Assembly: GCA_022763185.1 (NCBI GenBank)
Contig: JALEGL010000003.1
Location: 1-64,000, forward strand
Direction: 5' to 3'
Length of the DNA stretch: 64,000 nt
Origin: a bacterium
Lineage (GTDB): Bacteria; Bdellovibrionota_G; JALEGL01
Made by a program: the position numbers and the translations under genes. The notes beneath the pieces were generated by a model, which saw only the letters and a program-made list of their open reading frames with translations, did no database searches and was not told where the DNA came from. Each line of letters begins with the position of its first letter. Position 1 is the first letter of the stretch. Shown in pieces: positions 2,236 to 44,358 of this stretch.

Positions 2236-3636
2236 TTAATTGTTGGGTAAAGCCCAAGCTTCATCTTCTTGCTCAACCCACTTTTGTTGTTCAGCAATAA
2301 AGGTGGTTGGATCAGTGACTTGATGATCAAGTAAAATAGCATTGGCTTCATCTGTACCAAACAAATCCGCATAGTCACCATGAAAACCGTCACAAATGGC
2401 TTTCACAGAGCAATCATTACATTTTGTACTGTATTGGTAGCCACAATGTAACTCAGCTCTTACCTTTGCATTGTTTCTATAGGCATCTTCTTTAGACTTC
2501 AGGTTCTGTGTAAAATAGGTCAGTACTCGATAGGCTTTTTGCGCAAGTGCACCGATAACTGGAATTGCAGCTACCTTTGCAGCCAAGTCTACATTTTTAG
2601 ATACAATTCTTTCACTTCCCAAGTGGAAAGGCTCAGAAGTATTGCCGCCTTTCATTCTTTGTGGTTGCAAACCGGTCCAGTTCCATGAGGCATAGTCCCA
2701 TTCGTGATGGTCATACGGAAGTTGCTGAAAATTGTACATGGACTTTAAATGTCTACGTTCGGTCATGCATAATGGGTAATAGCGGACATTGGCTTCAACC
2801 TTGTTTTCATCCAATATATCCAAAGCTTGGTTTAATTTGGGCATGATATCAGAATATTTGGGTACATTGTAAGCTGAGCGTTTGCCATCTTTGGCTTGGT
2901 CTTCAAAGGGATTAAAAGCCAAGAAGTTAACAACACTAGCGCCTGTTTTAACGGCCAATTCAGCAATCTGGGGTAGTTGATTGATCACAGGTTTTGACAA
3001 TACGCAATTAAATCTAAAAGGTATTCCCACTTCTTGTAAGTTTTTTAAAGCCCGCATTTGTTTTTCATGAGCGCCAGGCATTTGGACCACTCTATCATGC
3101 ACATCGCCAATGCCGTGCACACTGACCAAAAAGTCTCTTAGTCCCGCATCCTTATAAGCTTGGCATTTTTCCTTTTTCTCTAAAACCAAAGCATTGGTAA
3201 TCAGCGTTGGATAAAGTCCAATAGACTGGCAGTAGGTGACAAAGGGCAAAATATCTTTCCAAATGGTAGGCTCCCCACCTTGAATATCAATGGCATTATT
3301 GCCATACAAATTGACCATGGTGTCAGCTATTTTTTTAGCTTTTTCCAAACTCATGAAGGGGTGTTCAGGGTGTGTTCTAATTTCAATACGATCAAGAAAG
3401 TAACAAAAATGACAACGAAGGTTACAGGTTTGCCCCAGCCACATCACACCTCTCTTAGTAATGGTTCTGTGAGGCGTTTGTTTGAGTTTAGGAGTTGGGG
3501 CCTTGTTATCTGTATGAGCTAGTTTTAAGGCACGAGCTAAGGCAGACTGAGGGTCTTTTTCATCAGGACTGACATCCATTGAAATTAAGTTTGAAGTTTT
3601 GCGACTGGGAGACTTTTTATCTAATTTTGAAAGCAT
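2236..3636 (-). CDS. Radical SAM protein with SPASM-like C-terminal cysteines
   Basis: The protein has 466 residues. The [4Fe-4S] binding motif is C71-N-L-R-C75-H-F-C78, and QGGEPT is the typical GGE motif that contacts AdoMet. A C-terminal cysteine group (CGYQYSTKCNDCSVKAICDG) resembles a SPASM/twitch auxiliary cluster site. Residues 1-60 are a polar tail. The family carries out radical chemistry on peptides, sugars or small molecules. Here it lies next to a glycosyltransferase and an O-antigen exporter, so sugar or lipid-carrier modification is one possibility. The substrate cannot be told from sequence. No precursor peptide is visible next to it. Confidence 0.8.
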   Translation of the reverse strand: MLSKLDKKSPSRKTSNLISMDVSPDEKDPQSALARALKLAHTDNKAPTPKLKQTPHRTITKRGVMWLGQTCNLRCHFCYFLDRIEIRTHPEHPFMSLEKAKKIADTMVNLYGNNAIDIQGGEPTIWKDILPFVTYCQSIGLYPTLITNALVLEKKEKCQAYKDAGLRDFLVSVHGIGDVHDRVVQMPGAHEKQMRALKNLQEVGIPFRFNCVLSKPVINQLPQIAELAVKTGASVVNFLAFNPFEDQAKDGKRSAYNVPKYSDIMPKLNQALDILDENKVEANVRYYPLCMTERRHLKSMYNFQQLPYDHHEWDYASWNWTGLQPQRMKGGNTSEPFHLGSERIVSKNVDLAAKVAAIPVIGALAQKAYRVLTYFTQNLKSKEDAYRNNAKVRAELHCGYQYSTKCNDCSVKAICDGFHGDYADLFGTDEANAILLDHQVTDPTTFIAEQQKWVEQEDEAWALPNN

Positions 3637-14617: not shown

Positions 14618-16882
14618 ATGATAAAAAGATTGATTTTTTTAACTTTTCTTACAACCTTGTGTTTGGTTTTTATTGCAAAAAATCAGCAGATAAATTTTAA
14701 AGCATATCATGTTAAATATACTATAGGTGATGATCCGACCTTTAAAAAAGAATACTACAGCGATGAAAGCTGGAAAAACTATAAAATTGGTGAAGCGTTA
14801 AAAAATCATAAAAAACCTTTTATATATTGGATAAGATTTAAATTTAATAATGATAAACCTTCTTTAAAACAGCCAGCAATTTCATTAGGCAAAATTGGAG
14901 ATATCGATGAAGTTTATTTTAATGGTGAACTTATTGGATTTAATGGAAGTATTGAAGGTAAATCAAAATCCTATTACCATTATCCGAGACTGTATAGAAT
15001 TCCAAAGCACTTATTGAAAAATAATAATATTGTTGCAATAAGAGCTAAGAAAAGTGGTATCTTGTCAGCAGGTATTCATTCTGGTCCAGTTGATTTTGGC
15101 GAATACGAAGATTTAAGAATTTCTACTGGCATTGTAAATTTTTTGTCACTTGGTTTGGGAATGATTCTTTGTTTTTTTAGTCTTATGGTAGGTTTGTATC
15201 ATTTATATTTGTATTTTCGGATAAAAGAATATCGATATAATTTGGTTTACTTCTTTTTTTCACTTTTCTCAGCTGTTTTTATTTACTCTGCTGCATGGGG
15301 GTTTAATAATCACATCACTAATCCGAAGTTGATACCCCAAATACATGCTTTATCAGGAGTTTTGACCACGATTTTTTATTTAGTATTTGTAGTAAGATTT
15401 CTCAATTTAAAAATAAATTATTGGCACAAGTTAATTATTCAATTGCAGCTGATTATTGCAGGGGCATGTTTTTTTTATAATGATGTTGATCACATTGTAA
15501 GGATATATAGGGTATGGTTTTTCTTGGCATTATTTACGATTTTGTACGCAGGATATTTATTTATAGTGCATTACTATAATAACAACAGAAAAGATTTAAG
15601 AGTCTTAATTTATTCAATAGTCATAATGTTTTTGTGTGCTGGGTTTGACTCTTTGTATGGTTTTGTTGTTTTTTCAAGTTTTCAGCTTAGTGGAATAGGT
15701 ATTTTTGCTTTAAACGTTGGTATAATATTTTCAGTGGCTCAAAAATTTACAACGAACTATTTAGAAGTTCAAAGAGAAGTCGAAGGGCATACACAAATAA
15801 TGTATGAAAGGGCACAGCAAGTAGCGCATGACATCCGTTCGCCGTTAACGGCCTTGAATGTAGTATCGAAGGATTTGTCAGGTTTACCAGAGGGGTCTCG
15901 GGTTTTGCTGCGAGCATCTATTCAAAGGATACAAGATATTGCCAATAATCTAGTAAGCAAGAGTGAAGTGTATACTGAAGATACCGAGGGTATAGATGAA
16001 CACAATACTTTAGAATCTGTATTGTTGTTGCCTGTAATAGAAGAGATAGTATCAGAGAAAAGGCATCAGCAAAGAAGTAAAGAAGGTGTGAATATTGTTT
16101 TAGATAGTGAACAAACTTATGGTTTGTTTGCTAAAGTAGATGAGCATACTTTAAAAAGAGTTCTTTCTAATTTGATTAATAATAGTGTAGAAGCCTTTGA
16201 AGGTTCTGGAGAGGTGGTTGTTCAAATTACTGAATGCTTAGATTCTGATGAGGTTTTAATTCTTGTCAAAGACAATGGCAGAGGAATTCCAAAAGATGTG
16301 TTGCCCAAGTTGGGTGAAAGAGGAGCCTCTTTTGGCAAAGAAGCCCATAAAGGTTCAGGATCAGGCTTAGGCTTGTATCATGCCAAAAGCAGTATAGAGC
16401 AATGGGGTGGGCGCTTTATAATAGATTCTGAAGAAGGTAATGGTACAGAAATTCAACTTTATCTGCCCAAAACAGACGCGCCAGACTGGTTTATACCAGC
16501 GATCAACTTGGAAGGTATTAAAACTATTATTATGTTGGATGATGATGAGTCAATTCATCAAGTGTGGGAAAAGCGTTTAAGCCCCTATACAGAGCAATAT
16601 AACATAGAGTTAAAACATGCTAGATGTCCAGATGCATTTGAAAAGCTGGTGCAAGAGAGAGAAGGTTTGTTGTGTTTATGCGATTATGAGCTTTTGGGTT
16701 ACAAAGAGACTGGTTTAGACCTGATTGAGCAGAATAAACTAGAAGATATGGCAATCCTGGTGACGAGCCGGTATGCTGAAGAAGCTGTGCAGGGACGCTG
16801 CAAAAAACTTGGTATAAAACTTATCCCAAAAACATCTGCGGATTTGGTGCCGTTTACACTAAAAGATAAAGAATCTACGTGA
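14618..16882 (+). CDS. Hybrid histidine kinase with jelly-roll sensor and 7TM region
   Basis: The 754-residue protein reads in order: N-terminal membrane anchor; periplasmic sugar-binding-like beta domain (about 30-165, with ISLGKIGDIDEVYFNGELIG as in galactose-binding folds); seven membrane helices (about 175-385, 7TMR-DISM type); HisKA with phospho-acceptor H404 (AHDIRSPLTAL); HATPase with N-box NLINNSVEAFEG and G-box GSGSGLGLYHAK; C-terminal receiver with likely phospho-Asp D689 (LCDYELLG). The receiver lacks an obvious output domain, so phosphate is probably passed on to another protein. A sigma54 promoter lies upstream. The ligand is unknown; a sugar or cell-wall fragment is only a guess from the sensor fold. 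Confidence 0.85.
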   Translation: MIKRLIFLTFLTTLCLVFIAKNQQINFKAYHVKYTIGDDPTFKKEYYSDESWKNYKIGEALKNHKKPFIYWIRFKFNNDKPSLKQPAISLGKIGDIDEVYFNGELIGFNGSIEGKSKSYYHYPRLYRIPKHLLKNNNIVAIRAKKSGILSAGIHSGPVDFGEYEDLRISTGIVNFLSLGLGMILCFFSLMVGLYHLYLYFRIKEYRYNLVYFFFSLFSAVFIYSAAWGFNNHITNPKLIPQIHALSGVLTTIFYLVFVVRFLNLKINYWHKLIIQLQLIIAGACFFYNDVDHIVRIYRVWFFLALFTILYAGYLFIVHYYNNNRKDLRVLIYSIVIMFLCAGFDSLYGFVVFSSFQLSGIGIFALNVGIIFSVAQKFTTNYLEVQREVEGHTQIMYERAQQVAHDIRSPLTALNVVSKDLSGLPEGSRVLLRASIQRIQDIANNLVSKSEVYTEDTEGIDEHNTLESVLLLPVIEEIVSEKRHQQRSKEGVNIVLDSEQTYGLFAKVDEHTLKRVLSNLINNSVEAFEGSGEVVVQITECLDSDEVLILVKDNGRGIPKDVLPKLGERGASFGKEAHKGSGSGLGLYHAKSSIEQWGGRFIIDSEEGNGTEIQLYLPKTDAPDWFIPAINLEGIKTIIMLDDDESIHQVWEKRLSPYTEQYNIELKHARCPDAFEKLVQEREGLLCLCDYELLGYKETGLDLIEQNKLEDMAILVTSRYAEEAVQGRCKKLGIKLIPKTSADLVPFTLKDKEST

Positions 16883-18751: not shown

Positions 18752-21700
18752 GTGAATTTTTTAAAAGCTATTTCTAATAAACTTATTCAGATTCAGTATA
18801 AATTAGCTATATTTTTGGGACCTTGGTTAGGGGTAATCTTAGCATTAATTTTAGTAGGACTTCTCTTTAAAACAACGATTCCATATGGTTTTAAAGTTCC
18901 GGGTACTAAGATAACTAATTCGTGGGAAGTAACATTTTCAGATCCAACAAAATGTAACGTTGAATGTGTTTGGAAAAAATTGGATGTTGTAGATAAATCT
19001 ATTTTGAATAAATATAGAGGTTATTTAGGGTATCGAATGCAAGTCGATAGTGAAGTTGTTCCAAAAGTAAAGCAGTTGGCTCTTTTTCTGGGGCCAATTG
19101 GTGATATTGATGAGACTTACTGGAATGGAACTTTAATTGGTAAAACAGGTGTTTTTTTTCCAAATGGGCGATTTACGCACCATAAAAATCGTATATATGA
19201 CGTTCCCAACCATACAATTTTAAATCAACCTTTTCAAACAATCATTTTGAAGGTTCAAAAAATTGCTGGACCTGGAATAGGACCATATCGTTTAGATCCA
19301 CATATAGGAAATTCAAAAGACTTGCATATTCATACAAAAATAAGGAATTTTGGGAGTATAACGGGGATATGGGTTGGAGCTATTATTTTAATAGTTTTAG
19401 GTATCTATCATTTTATCTTATTTAAGAAATTACCAGCAAGACGTGATTATTTTTATACGGGTATGAGTTTAATTTTTACTGGAGTTTATGGTGTATGTGC
19501 AAGTTTTACTCCTTACATGCTAACGCCAAAACCAGGGTCGTTATTTCGTATTCACGCTATCAGTGGTTATTTTGCGATTGCATTTTTGATAGCATTTATT
19601 AGAGAGCACTTTTCTTTAAAAAGCCAGTTAATGAAATGGGCAAATATTATTGTTACAAGTATTTGTACAGTAACAAGCCTGATCATAGTTGACTTTGATC
19701 GAGGGATTTTAGTTTTTCAAGCTTGGTTTGGTTTTTTAATAGTGTTTTGTGTTTGGACACCTTGGATTTTTTGGAAGCATAGAAAGTTAGAGCAGGCTGT
19801 TACACATAAGGTATTGCGTATAGGTTTGTTTATATTTTGTTCAACAATCATTCATGACATGATGGTTACTTCAGGGTTGTTTAGAAGTAATCTAATATCT
19901 ATATATGGAATGTTTGCATTTCTAGGTGGTATTGCTGTGATGTTAGCTCAAGAATTTGCTCTTAGATATGCTCATGTTGAAGAGCAAGTTGAATCGAGAA
20001 CAAAAGACTTAGCTATTGCGATTGAACGCCTTAAAGATCTAGAGCAGATGAAGGATAAGTTTTTTGCTAATATATCGCATGATTTTAAGACACCAATTGC
20101 TGTAGCTATGGGGTCTTTAGAGGAGATTAAACGTGAGACTTTGCCCACAGAAACTGTGCAAAGGCGGGCTGTAATAGCTGCAGAGAGCAGCTTGAACAAA
20201 CTACTTGCCATGGTTGGTGATCTTTTAGATGTCATAAAGGCGGAGTCTGGAACATTAAAAATGGAGTGGGCGAATGTTGATCCTGTTAAAGCTATAAAAG
20301 AGTGGATGCAGCCCTTTACCATTTTAGCCAACAAGAAAAATTTACAACTAAACCTTAAGAATCAACTAAAAGAATCTATTAAAATTCCTCTGGATGTGAA
20401 TAAGTTTGAAAGAATCATGCAAAACTTGCTGTCCAATGCTCTAAAGTTTACCAACTACAGTAAAAATAGAGAAAACTTAATTGAGGTTCAGCTAAAGATG
20501 GATCAAGCGTGGTGCTATATTGAAGTCCACGATAGCGGCATGGGTATACCCGATGATGAAAAACCCATGGTTTTTGAGCGTTACTATCAAACAACAAAGA
20601 CTTCTTTAAAACATCATGGCGGCTCTGGAATAGGATTATCATTTGTCAAAGAGATGATAGAAAATCACAATGGTACAATAACAGTTAAAGACTCTGACTA
20701 TGGCGGTGTTAAATTTGTTATAGCCTTGCCTTTAAAACAAAATGTTGAAGTTACAGGAAATTACTTTGTAGGCAGTGAAGCCAACACATATGCAGAAACT
20801 TATACTGTTGAGTTTCCTAGGCACGCCCCCGAAAAACTTAATGAAAATTTATTCACCATTTTGGTAGCGGAAGACAATCCTGAGGTGGCCAATATTACTT
20901 TGGCCGCAATAGAAAAAGAATTTAATGTGTATATGGTTGAAAATGGTCAAGAGGCTTTTGAGTTTATTCAAAATCACTCTATAGATTGTTTGGTAACCGA
21001 TATTGTTATGCCTGTGATGCGGGGTGAAGAGTTGGTAAAAAAAGTACGCGCTTACAACAAGACCAAAAACCTGCCCATTGTAGTATTAAGCTCGCAAAGT
21101 GATGAGAATACAGTTGTTGAGCTGATTAAAGATGGAGCCAATGATTATGTGACCAAGCCGTTTAAAAGAGAGATTTTGTTGGCCAGAGTTTTTGGTCAAA
21201 TAGAAAAGCATAAAAGTTCTCAATGGATTGCCCAAAATGAAAAAGTGATTGAGCTGGGGATGCTAGCCAGTGGTATTGCCCATCAAATAAGAAATGGTTT
21301 ACATGCCATGAAAAACCAAATTTCATATTATGAAAAAACAGCCCAAAGAATTGAGCAAAATATTCATGAATTGAGTGAAGAGCAGAGGCATAAAATCAAG
21401 ACACGACTAGATCAGTGTAATGAGATGATGATGCGGGCATTAGATAGAATTGATTCTTTAACCGCTTCAGTGAATTCCTATGCTTTGGGTTCAAAACAAG
21501 CCATTGAAATTACTTTAAATGACTCCTTAACCTTAATGAAAGAATTATTGGCAGATAAAATTAAAAGTACAGCAATAAACATTGAATTGAATGTTGAAGA
21601 AAATCTTAAGTTTATAGGTTACACTTCATTCCATGAAGTCATTATTAATCTCTTTGTCAATGCTATGGATGCCTGCAAGCATGATGGTACGGGTAAGATA

Positions 21701-22003
21701 ATTTTAAATGCTAAACAAGATGGCCAAGTGATTAAAATAGAGATTACAGATAATGGTACTGGAATAAAAAAAGATGCTCTAGATAGAATCTGGCAACCGT
21801 TTTTTACAACCAAAGATCCAGATAAAGGTACGGGTTTAGGTTTGTATATTGTGAGAGATATTATTCAAGGGCAACATGGTGGTAAGCTTAATGTTTATTC
21901 TGAGGGTGAAAACAAAGGAGCTAAATTTGTTATAGAGATTCCTAAAGTTGCTAAAGAAGCCACGCAAGATGCAAGTTTTGTCATGCATGGGCATGAAGTT
22001 TAA
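18752..22003 (+). CDS. Double hybrid histidine kinase (sensor-7TM-HK-REC-HK)
   Basis: The 1083-residue protein starts at GTG behind AGGGG. Order: one N-terminal membrane helix (about 15-38); periplasmic jelly-roll domain ([22 protein letters not shown]) like the one in the kinase at 14618; seven membrane helices (about 200-400); coiled linker; HisKA with H443 ([11 protein letters not shown]); HATPase ([24 protein letters not shown]); receiver with D750 ([10 protein letters not shown]) and a KPF lysine; then a second kinase core with H844 ([11 protein letters not shown]) and an ATPase domain ([19 protein letters not shown]). Two complete transmitter modules around one receiver are unusual. Phosphate could flow from the first core to the receiver to control the second. 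Confidence 0.86.
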
Positions 22004-40573: not shown

Positions 40574-40658
40574 TTAAGTGATGCTGATGACTGAAGTGGT
40601 TAAAAATACGAGCAAAAACAATAGAAAGAGCAGTAAAGAAAACGAAGGAGATCAATGT

Positions 40659-41864
40659 ATGTTTGAATTTGAAGAAGTAAGCAATGTGGCAAAGATTAAG
40701 GTCATTGGTGTTGGTGGCGGCGGTGGAAATGCTGTAAACACAATGATAGAAGAAGGTTTGTCCAATGTTGACTTTATTGCGGTTAATACGGATGCTCAAG
40801 CGCTCAATGCATCAAGAGCTGATCACAAAATGCAAATTGGTGAGACTTTGACTCGCGGTTTAGGTGCTGGAGCCAATCCTGAAATTGGACGCGAAGCCGC
40901 TTTAGAAGATAGAGATAGAATTGCAGAACATATTAAAGGTGCGGATATGGTCTTTATCACTGCCGGTATGGGCGGCGGAACTGGGACCGGAGCAGCGCCT
41001 ATTGTGGCGGAAATTGCTAGAGAGAGTGGTGCCTTGACCATTGGTGTTGTAACCAAACCTTTTATCTTTGAGGGTAAACGCAGAAAAAAGCATGCTGAAG
41101 AAGGTATAGATGTATTACAAAGCACTGTCGACACTTTAATTACCATCCCTAATCAACGTTTGATTAATCTTGCTGGTGAATCAACATCCATGGTGGATGC
41201 ATTTAAAAAGGCTGATGAAGTGTTGTTGCAAGCGGTACGTGGTATCAGTGACTTAATTACCATTCCTGGCTTGATTAACTTGGATTTTGCTGACGTGAGA
41301 ACCATCATGAATGGCCAAGGTCTAGCCATGATGGGTACTGGGCAAGCCACAGGTGAAAAACGCTCTGTAGAATCAGCCCAACGCGCTATTTCTTCTCCAC
41401 TACTGGAAGATATTGATATTCATGGTGCAACTGGAGTTCTATTGAACATTACAGGTAGTTCAAACATGACTTTGCATGAAGTCAACGAAGCTGCAGTGAT
41501 GATTCAGGAAGCCACGCATGAAGATGCCAATATTATCTTTGGTGCCGTAATCGATGAGCGCATGGGTGATGATTTAAGAATCACAGTCATTGCCACTGGC
41601 TTTGAAAATGAAGACAGTAAGCGCGATCACGCTTTTAACCCGCAAAAAACAAGAGCTTATTCAAATCAAAGAGTAGGTGCTGGCTTACCGTCTTCTGCAC
41701 CGCAAGCGAGAAAAGACAAAGACATTCCAATTGAAAACTCTCTGTTGAAACTGCGTGATATTGATTCTTTAGAGTTTAGAAAGCGTATTAAAGAACTGGG
41801 TGCCGATGCCTTTGAAGAAAGCGAATACGACATTCCTACTTTTTTGCGCAAGCAGGTGGATTGA
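40659..41864 (+). CDS. ftsZ: Cell division GTPase FtsZ
   Basis: The protein has 401 residues when started at ATG 40659, which sits 8 bases after an AAGGAG and gives the canonical N-terminus [20 protein letters not shown]. An in-frame ATG at 40578 would add 27 atypical residues. The tubulin signature [10 protein letters not shown] and the T7 loop region [11 protein letters not shown] are present, and the C-terminal tail ends with [10 protein letters not shown], the peptide that binds FtsA. The linker is short. The gene lies 85 bp after ftsA and closes the dcw operon. Confidence 0.96.
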
Positions 41865-42451: not shown

Positions 42452-42545
42452 AATAGAATTACTAATCAAGCTATAAAAATTATTATCTTGTTTTAGTAGA
42501 TTTAGTTTGTTAGCGTTTTACCTTCAAACAAAATAAGGAGAAACC

Positions 42546-42626
42546 ATGAAAAAATTCAATCTTAAAATTCATAAAGTAAAAGTTTACGGAGCTGCAAGAG
42601 TACTACCAGTCTGCAAGAAAAAGTAA
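42546..42626 (+). CDS. Small basic peptide, candidate precursor for the downstream HExxH protein
   Basis: The gene encodes 26 residues, beginning MKKFNLKIHKVKVYG and ending in VCKKK. A strong AAGGAG (42535-42540) sits 5 bases before ATG. The peptide has nine Lys and one Arg, one His (9), one Tyr (14) and one Cys (23). It has no signal peptide. A hairpin follows it directly, and then comes a gene of the HExxH putative peptide-modification family in the same orientation, 72 bp after the peptide stop. Role as a modified-peptide precursor is inferred from this context only. No homologue is recognised, and a regulatory leader peptide is the main alternative. Confidence 0.55.
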   Translation: MKKFNLKIHKVKVYGAARVLPVCKKK

Positions 42627-42633
42627 ACCTTTT

Positions 42634-42681
42634 ATAAAGCACAGTTATTATGATCTTTTTAGAACGTAAGCTGTGCTTTAT
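42634..42681 (+). terminator. Hairpin between the small peptide and the HExxH gene (possible partial terminator)
   Basis: ATAAAGCACAG (42634-42644) is perfectly complementary to CTGTGCTTTAT (42671-42681), with a 26-nt loop. A T-rich TATTTTG follows. The run of T is short and the loop large, so termination is probably partial. Such a hairpin would let the peptide be made in excess over the enzyme, or stabilise the peptide mRNA. Confidence 0.5.
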
Positions 42682-42698
42682 TATTTTGATGGAGAAAT

Positions 42699-43571
42699 AT
42701 GTATTCCTTATTATTTGATTTAGATCAAACTCAAAAACTAGCAAGAGAATATTGGCAGGCTTTACGCTCAGAAACGATGAGTGAGTTGAACATTGAGTTA
42801 AATGAAGAGTTGTCTGTTTTTGATAAATCTATTATTTGGAGTATGGGTACGTATAGGCCCGAAACACTTTCAGAAATTAAAGATAGTGAAAGCTTAAAAG
42901 CTCAATTGATTGGTGAGAATGAATATATTCATAACTATCAACTAAACTCAGCACCAAGTTTTATTAAACGATACTCTATGGACCTTGAACAAGGTTTACA
43001 CTATGATCTTGATGAAGCACTATTAAAAGAAGTAGAGGGTGCTATTGAAAGGGCACTAGAGATTGTAAAAACTCATTGGCATGAAGCCTATGAAGAAATA
43101 GAAGCAATTTATAAAGCTTTTGTTTGGCAAAGATCGCCAGGCTTGAATAATAGAGCGCACTCAGCACCCCAAAACTTTGGCTTCTCTTTTTTAAATATTG
43201 ATTACTTTAAAGATGTTGAACCAGTTGCTTTAGCTACACAATTTGTTCATGAAGCATCACATCAAATTTTATTTGTTGAATGTGCCATTGACCCATTGAT
43301 TCCAGAGGATTACGATACAATGGTTTATTCACCCTTCAGGGGTGAGCAAAGACCAGCAATAGGAGCATTGCATGCATTGATATCAATGGCGAGAATGTTA
43401 ATGTGGAAGGAAAAGCTAGAAAACCATCTTGATTACGAGAAAGAATGTAAAGATATTGAGAGACTGATTCCTTTATATAATCAAGCTATTGAAGAGTTAG
43501 CATCCATAAAATTTAGCCAACGAGGAAATGATTTAATGGATTCCTTCAAGCGGCTTCAAACAACACTTTAA
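42699..43571 (+). CDS. HExxH-motif putative peptide-modification protein (possible Fe/2-oxoglutarate peptide hydroxylase)
   Basis: The 290-residue protein has no signal peptide. The metal motif is H184-E-A-S-H188 in QFVHEASHQILF. It is followed by YSPFRGEQRPAIGALHALI (210-228), where H225 is a candidate third metal ligand and R214/R218 are candidate substrate or cosubstrate contacts. This 'HExxH ... SPxR...RP..G.LH' pattern is that of the family named HEXXH putative peptide modification proteins (TIGR04267 type); some members are reported as 2-oxoglutarate-dependent peptide beta-hydroxylases. GGAGA precedes the start. A short peptide gene lies upstream. A metalloprotease is the alternative, but the motif after HExxH does not fit common peptidase families. 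Confidence 0.75.
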   Translation: MYSLLFDLDQTQKLAREYWQALRSETMSELNIELNEELSVFDKSIIWSMGTYRPETLSEIKDSESLKAQLIGENEYIHNYQLNSAPSFIKRYSMDLEQGLHYDLDEALLKEVEGAIERALEIVKTHWHEAYEEIEAIYKAFVWQRSPGLNNRAHSAPQNFGFSFLNIDYFKDVEPVALATQFVHEASHQILFVECAIDPLIPEDYDTMVYSPFRGEQRPAIGALHALISMARMLMWKEKLENHLDYEKECKDIERLIPLYNQAIEELASIKFSQRGNDLMDSFKRLQTTL

Positions 43572-43581
43572 TGTATAAAAA

Positions 43582-44358
43582 TTAAATCATCTTATAGGCA
43601 AAAAATGCAATAACCAGACTAATGGCCAAGGCTGCAAGTGTAACCAATACTTTAACTAATAAAGAAGCATCACCAACATTGGTCAAGGCTGTAAGATTGG
43701 AGGAGCCTGTTTTTGATTTTTCTAAATCTTTGAGATCTCCGGTATAAACTTCGGTTTTTGAATGTTTTAAAGTCTCTAAGAGTTCTTTTTGGGAGGTGTC
43801 CATAAATAACATTTTTGTTTTTGAATGTTTAGCGAGTGAAGCGCGCTCGTTTTTATAATCTAAAACATCATTGGCCTTAAGCTGCTTTTGGTTGATTGCA
43901 TGCTCTAAAGCACGAAAAGAGTCAAAGTCTCTAAGCTCGCCGTTTTCTTTTGTAACACGGGGATGTGTAAACATATTATCAAGCAAGTTAGAGAGGACAC
44001 TGCTTTTTCTATTATAAGAATTTTCAGGTTCCGGTAAATCTTTGTCAGGGGCTTTTGACAAGGTGTCATTGATCCAAAGGCGTAGATTTTCTTCAGAAAC
44101 ATTATTATCTATACTGGCAGATTCTGCTTCTGCTAAAGATTTTTCTGGCTTATCCAAAATAAAATCACTGCCCAGAATTTCAAAGTATTTTTCTTGTTCA
44201 CTCCCTACCGATTTATGGAGAAAACTTTTGTGTGTGCAGTGGGGACAGGTGATGAAGTCATTGGGTTTATCAAAGTTGATATTTTTATGCGTATAGTCAT
44301 GCCCACAAGCATTGCATTGAAGCATTAGAGATAAAGCACCATGTTCACTGCGGTTCAT
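43582..44358 (-). CDS. Zinc-ribbon protein with a C-terminal membrane anchor
   Basis: The protein has 258 residues. Near the N-terminus, two CxxC knuckles (CNACGHDYTH and CPHCTHKSF) form a zinc ribbon like the MJ0042-type finger. The middle is charged and low in complexity. A segment near 145-190 (DFDSFRALEHAINQKQLKANDVLDY) resembles a GYF-like/tip domain often found with such fingers. The last 25 residues are a membrane helix. The start may be the internal ATG at 44325, which gives MLQCNACGH. It is convergent with the HExxH gene. The role is unknown; an inner-membrane regulatory or scaffold protein is a guess. Confidence 0.6.
   Translation of the reverse strand: MNRSEHGALSLMLQCNACGHDYTHKNINFDKPNDFITCPHCTHKSFLHKSVGSEQEKYFEILGSDFILDKPEKSLAEAESASIDNNVSEENLRLWINDTLSKAPDKDLPEPENSYNRKSSVLSNLLDNMFTHPRVTKENGELRDFDSFRALEHAINQKQLKANDVLDYKNERASLAKHSKTKMLFMDTSQKELLETLKHSKTEVYTGDLKDLEKSKTGSSNLTALTNVGDASLLVKVLVTLAALAISLVIAFFAYKMI

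Follow-up and report, generated by a model that had tools for sequence, protein, structure and literature searches.

Does the gene pair between positions 42,546 and 43,571 of this 64,000-nucleotide stretch of bacterial DNA (hereafter the window) encode a ribosomal peptide together with the enzyme that modifies it, and what would such a peptide be for? The first gene is only 26 codons long, the second specifies a protein of 290 residues with an HExxH motif. Judging from sequence and from analogy with related loci, we consider it fairly probable that one supplies the precursor and the other the hydroxylase for a peptide that is exported and probably serves as a signal, where both modification and signalling are what we infer. 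The core of this reading, a RiPP-type precursor and its maturase, is highly probable. The peptide-signalling role, drawn by analogy, stands somewhat below an even chance, and its weakness holds down our estimate for the whole.

The enzyme gene (42699-43571, forward strand) begins four bases after a GGAG ribosome binding site seen in the sequence (42691-42694, forward strand). Residues 117-244 of its product match TIGR04267 (NCBIfam; IPR026337; aKG-HExxH-type peptide beta-hydroxylase) with 59.6 bits, the cut-off being 40, and a Pfam search of the 290 residues gave no match and no peptidase family. A profile built from 15 homologs retrieved PDB 8s5f (HExxH domain of ChlBH) at 2.3e-21; the match covers about 230 residues and aligns both family motifs. 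The first of these is the predicted metal-binding motif HEASH (residues 184-188; 43248-43262, forward strand), in which H184, E185 and H188 are invariant among the 15 homologs. The second, YSPFRGEQRPAIGALHAL (residues 210-227; 43326-43379, forward strand), contains invariant R218 and H225 and aligns in the profile match with SPWREDLRPPSGLLHA of ChlH. An AlphaFold model of the enzyme has a mean pLDDT of 72, with blocks of 65-96 from residue 111 on; searched against known folds, it retrieved 8s5f at 2.1e-10 (query TM-score 0.64) and SjiH at 3.5e-6, followed by the peptidase selecase at E 0.55, and peptidases did no better than that. By its sequence profile and modelled fold, the protein falls among the Fe(II)/2-oxoglutarate aKG-HExxH peptide oxygenases. 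The original prediction had placed it in the HExxH peptide-modification family on the strength of the two motifs, which lie at the residues it gave; the TIGR04267 and ChlH profile matches and the modelled fold agree with that placement, and profile search and structure prediction both favour this family over metallopeptidases.

The short gene (42546-42626, forward strand) encodes the candidate precursor MKKFNLKIHKVKVYGAARVLPVCKKK, a basic peptide with a single His, a single Tyr and a single Cys. Its ATG stands five bases downstream of AAGGAG (42535-42540, forward strand), found both in the sequence and in an SD scan. Between the two genes lies a hairpin (42634-42681, forward strand) with a folding energy of -21.8 kcal/mol, compared to a mean of -8.65 for shuffled sequences (z -5.6; no shuffle equalled it). 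The start signal and its spacing, the hairpin and the residue composition had all been read from the letters beforehand, and sequence, shuffling and translation bear them out.

Is the small frame kept where the enzyme is kept? Among five genomes of the window's phylum that we examined, three possess the enzyme family. One of these, G003, belongs to the same order as the window genome and corresponds to JAGRMV01 ('Deltaproteobacteria bacterium HKST-UBA01'). Its enzyme ortholog, 44% identical, has a 21-codon frame, VIKFNINIHSDATYGAARVHV, immediately 5' of it. When the window peptide was compared with all five genomes, its sole match besides itself was this site 5' of the G003 ortholog (whole-genome E 0.1). 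Against the 300 bases 5' of the G003 enzyme the score of the window peptide was 59, a value that none of 2000 dinucleotide shuffles reached (maximum 36). Within the YGAARV block, the two species differ at four bases, all of them third codon positions. The G003 match, the shuffle test and the restriction of changes to third positions together identify the small frame, at the level of sequence, as a conserved protein-coding partner of the enzyme, in what is a thin sample of two species, the window genome and G003, to which this exact peptide type is confined. A ribosomal precursor that is encoded and conserved with its maturase, as expected of a RiPP, is thus present through the frame of the G003 ortholog, and the proposal that the small frame is the precursor survived comparison with a related genome, with YGAARV conserved at the codon level. 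Searches of the window's genus returned only its own genome, a single-protein search of genome contigs had no matches, and a tblastn search of plasmids gave none either. A contig search based on an alignment recovered, besides G003, one distant relative each from Myxococcota and Planctomycetota.

Short peptide genes accompany other enzymes of this family as well. In the genome to which the window belongs, contig 14 carries a frame of 21 codons, MKINLDIFDNEIFSELRQDFN, which has a ribosome binding site and is followed by a hairpin comparable to that in the window (z -5.7). This gene heads an operon containing an oligopeptide-type solute-binding protein (SBP_bac_5; SBP below) and is divergent from another HExxH enzyme gene. 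In G407, a genome from another phylum, the frame MSEINLDIFLEDSIAEPRVDRAAF is preceded by AAGGAG at a spacing of six and ends 17 bases 5' of an HExxH enzyme gene. The similarity between the contig 14 and G407 peptides is equalled by only one of 2055 unrelated short frames. The enzyme tree joins the window with G003 (100/99) and contig 14 with G407 (100/97), so that peptides and enzymes pair in the same way, as co-evolution of precursor and maturase predicts. A third peptide form, MAKSNESKKTVSFNFSFQSHRVLGAKLASIPTGS, is found directly 5' of the enzyme gene in G004. For the present we reject a single family of all these short peptides, since the two pairs are weakly linked: their cross score is equalled by 69 of 2055 unrelated frames. 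With cross scores this ordinary, the [FI]N[LIF]x[IF] stretch at most hints that the peptides of both pairs share an ancestor. By eye, several of the longer peptides may have a Pro motif in common.

The surroundings of the window pair are plain. Upstream is a gene (40578-41864) that we call FtsZ-like from its sequence, downstream an opposite-strand gene (43582-44358) that weakly matches a zinc ribbon. Neither a transporter nor a protease nor a second maturase adjoins the pair, no exporter, SBP or kinase gene was found within 6 kb of it, and no cleavage site is evident in the peptide; some RiPP loci lack a local protease (PMC12636437). The original prediction, which had noted that no transporter adjoins, thus holds for the window locus but not for the G003 ortholog, where an MFS gene follows 17 bases downstream. 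Within the phylum, the subfamily of this MFS protein is present in each of the three genomes that possess the enzyme and absent from the two that lack it; the carrier has its nearest relative in the window genome on contig 14, and the second phylum yielded no member apart from one weak match. Of the overall interpretation, enzyme family and precursor stand, but a complete, minimal intracellular system is not the best description, given the exporter of the ortholog and the fuller systems related to it.

These fuller systems have a recurrent composition. We compared 14 loci of this enzyme set with seven outside family members, some of them from Myxococcota and Planctomycetota. According to home-made HMMs, an SBP_bac_5 gene lies nearby in 11 of the 14 and a membrane histidine kinase gene in nine, neither being found at any of the seven, in a comparison where phylum and clade are confounded. 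MFS genes are likewise present in most of the 14 loci and in none of the seven. The G436 C20 locus was counted as lacking an SBP since the gene after its MFS gene (L088 10039-11409), SBP-like by eye, has no Pfam match; at the G004 YcaO locus, one further kinase lies just beyond the scanned stretch. SBP and kinase genes stand beside the peptide or enzyme gene on contigs 14 and 7 and in most related loci, and do not in the window. The contig 14 system comprises peptide, enzyme, SBP, MFS protein and hybrid kinase; that on contig 7 comprises enzyme, a 51-residue frame, MFS protein, SBP, hybrid kinase and a GNAT protein. In G407 an 878-residue frame (L091:6262-8898) unites an MFS-like membrane portion with a histidine kinase and adjoins an SBP gene, the HExxH enzyme gene and a 24-residue peptide gene; from its sequence, it looks as if exporter and receptor kinase were combined in a single protein. 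In G003 the enzyme is not accompanied by an SBP-kinase pair, and the four SBP genes of that genome lie elsewhere with no kinase in view. In G004 the SBP-kinase pair is additionally found with a LanM-dehydratase-like protein and a 27-residue frame, and with YcaO proteins. Constancy of the apparent receptor pair combined with variable peptide chemistry is what one would expect a signalling system to show.

Receptors of the LuxP-LuxQ type consist of a periplasmic binding protein and a hybrid histidine kinase. The periplasmic SBP and the membrane kinase of the sister loci form, by their sequences, an apparent two-part receptor that would work in the same way, the binding protein capturing the signal and the membrane kinase reporting it. 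They differ in that the binding protein is of the oligopeptide type (SBP_bac_5) and not the sugar type, and in that the ligand would be a modified ribosomal peptide; the window locus itself is devoid of such a pair.

The strongest competitor, still unlikely, is that the product of the locus is a small RiPP with antimicrobial action that leaves through the MFS carrier and has no part in signalling, the SBP and kinase of the sister loci serving immunity, uptake or cluster regulation. Characterised family members do occur in antibiotic clusters (biphenomycins, PMC12707348), the Os17 cluster has been linked to antibiotic activity (PMC7726476), the window peptide is basic and the exporter adjoins the enzyme in G003. 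Against this, no immunity gene was recognised, and receptor-like orphan SBPs, with no permease genes, stand beside membrane kinases in three systems of the window's own genome and phylum as well as in a second phylum.

Much less probable is that the short frame is an attenuator-type leader frame for the enzyme gene, acting with the hairpin and not as a substrate. The order of short frame, strong hairpin and enzyme gene would suit such an arrangement, but the codons of YGAARV change while its amino acids stay, the same folding comparison found no hairpin between the peptide and enzyme genes of G003, and the contig 14 peptide gene, first in its SBP operon, points away from the enzyme gene; we rejected this candidate on these grounds. 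An ordinary zinc metallopeptidase beside an unrelated short frame is extremely improbable and was rejected too: HExxH is also the zincin motif and PflC is capable of hydrolytic cleavage without a leader (PMC12636437), but the lack of any Pfam peptidase match, the TIGR04267 score above cut-off, the 8s5f profile and fold matches, the invariant family residues, best folds that are aKG-HExxH enzymes with peptidases at E 0.55 or worse, and the conservation of the short frame in G003 leave it unsupported.

For the modified, exported and possibly signalling peptide that we prefer, the following course can be proposed. The hairpin would allow the peptide to be produced in excess over the enzyme. The enzyme may grip the N-terminal, strand-like stretch KFNLKIH and hydroxylate or oxidatively trim the C-terminal stretch around YGAARV. 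The product would then leave the cell through an MFS carrier of the kind that adjoins the enzyme in G003 and has its nearest window-genome relative on contig 14, and could act outside as a signal perceived by an SBP-kinase pair, as the sister loci suggest; for the window peptide any such receptor would have to work in trans, from elsewhere. Signalling is the weakest step for the window locus, as neither the window nor G003 has an SBP-kinase pair beside the enzyme, and the window branch may work with a receptor in trans or may have changed its role. The gene content of the locus suggests a reduced member of the fuller systems, or one that acts in trans.

Comparison with characterised systems places the pair more closely. 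The window enzyme has its fold and its HExxH and RPxxGxLHA motifs in common with ChlH/ChlBH (PDB 8s5f, Chlorogloeopsis). As described in PMC12636437, ChlH forms one protein with a radical SAM enzyme and has a cyclophane peptide as its substrate, whereas the window enzyme is stand-alone, with a 26-residue peptide and no radical SAM partner; ChlBH is cited there as hydroxylating Asp and His. PflC and PosC of the Pseudomonas pfl and pos clusters are, like the window enzyme, stand-alone aKG-HExxH enzymes with a small precursor and no protease in the cluster; they hydroxylate Gln and cleave oxidatively before ARMD (PMC12636437). A C-terminal AR step, within ARMD in their target region and within AARV in the window peptide, is a resemblance and no more. 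Precursors of the PosA/PflA type have a long nitrile-hydratase-like leader (85 residues in Os1348), unlike the 26-residue window peptide. The pfl and pos clusters also carry GNAT, MNIO-nitroreductase and efflux genes, with no SBP-kinase pair reported (PMC12636437). PesO of the nitrilobacillin cluster hydroxylates Pro before R(V/T)DN (PMC13060819), and may be likened to the window enzyme as an aKG-HExxH enzyme whose target lies close to the C-terminal end of a short precursor; it differs in working with an MNIO and a nitrile-forming enzyme, in a cluster that encodes peptidases and a transporter (PMC13060819).

In the literature consulted, the characterised aKG-HExxH enzymes belong to clusters of cyanobacteria, Pseudomonas, Streptomyces and Peribacillus, whose products are antibiotics or of unknown function. 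In the open-access literature, where absence is weak evidence, we found no paper connecting HExxH enzymes with a histidine kinase and a solute-binding protein, nor a paired SBP-kinase described for the characterised enzymes. The window pair looks like a variant of aKG-HExxH RiPP loci, related to an apparent peptide-signalling family, and the findings point to modified peptides as a class of Gram-negative signals that has been little explored. Likewise somewhat below an even chance is a Gram-negative pheromone class defined by a very short peptide, an aKG-HExxH or other RiPP maturase, MFS export and an oligopeptide-type SBP with a kinase, in which the window pair would be a receptor-less branch acting in trans. 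If true, the recurring SBP-kinase link would give the aKG-HExxH family a role in cell-to-cell signalling, modified ribosomal peptides would join the known Gram-negative signals, and receptor-ligand pairs would become testable, each complete locus specifying its own peptide, enzyme, exporter and receptor.

Several minor observations concern the same genomes. The window encodes two large membrane hybrid histidine kinases (14618-16882 and 18752-22003), the first with a core, AHDIRSPLTAL, resembling that of the SBP-linked kinases, and a radical-SAM-like protein (2236-3636) among sugar-transfer and export genes, unrelated to the pair as far as seen. Contigs 7 and 14 of the window genome (L005, L007) each begin with a near-identical aminotransferase fragment and, past the HExxH-SBP-kinase system, share a similar MATE-like gene, as if this system resided in a duplicated or exchanged island. 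Contig 10 of the same genome (L003:288-713) holds a fourth HExxH enzyme relative, interrupted by a stop codon close to the end of the contig and followed by a GNAT-like frame. In G436 (L089:1-6993), at least four tandem SBP_bac_5 genes lie downstream of an HExxH enzyme and a 66-residue frame. The G004 region L065:3100-7700 presents a basic 27-residue frame, MKKRRREYIDLDKLEKIVVIRGVTVGI, followed by a 363-residue LanM-dehydratase-like (DUF4135) protein, SBP_bac_5 and a histidine kinase, which by sequence is the same layout with a different predicted peptide chemistry. Finally, a row on contig 14 (L069:1320-9165) consists of a BioF-like alpha-oxoamine synthase, two family-less proteins, an MFS protein, SBP_bac_5 and a hybrid kinase; the synthase is related to quorum-sensing autoinducer synthases, and the row possibly serves a non-peptide signal sensed via the same kind of receptor.
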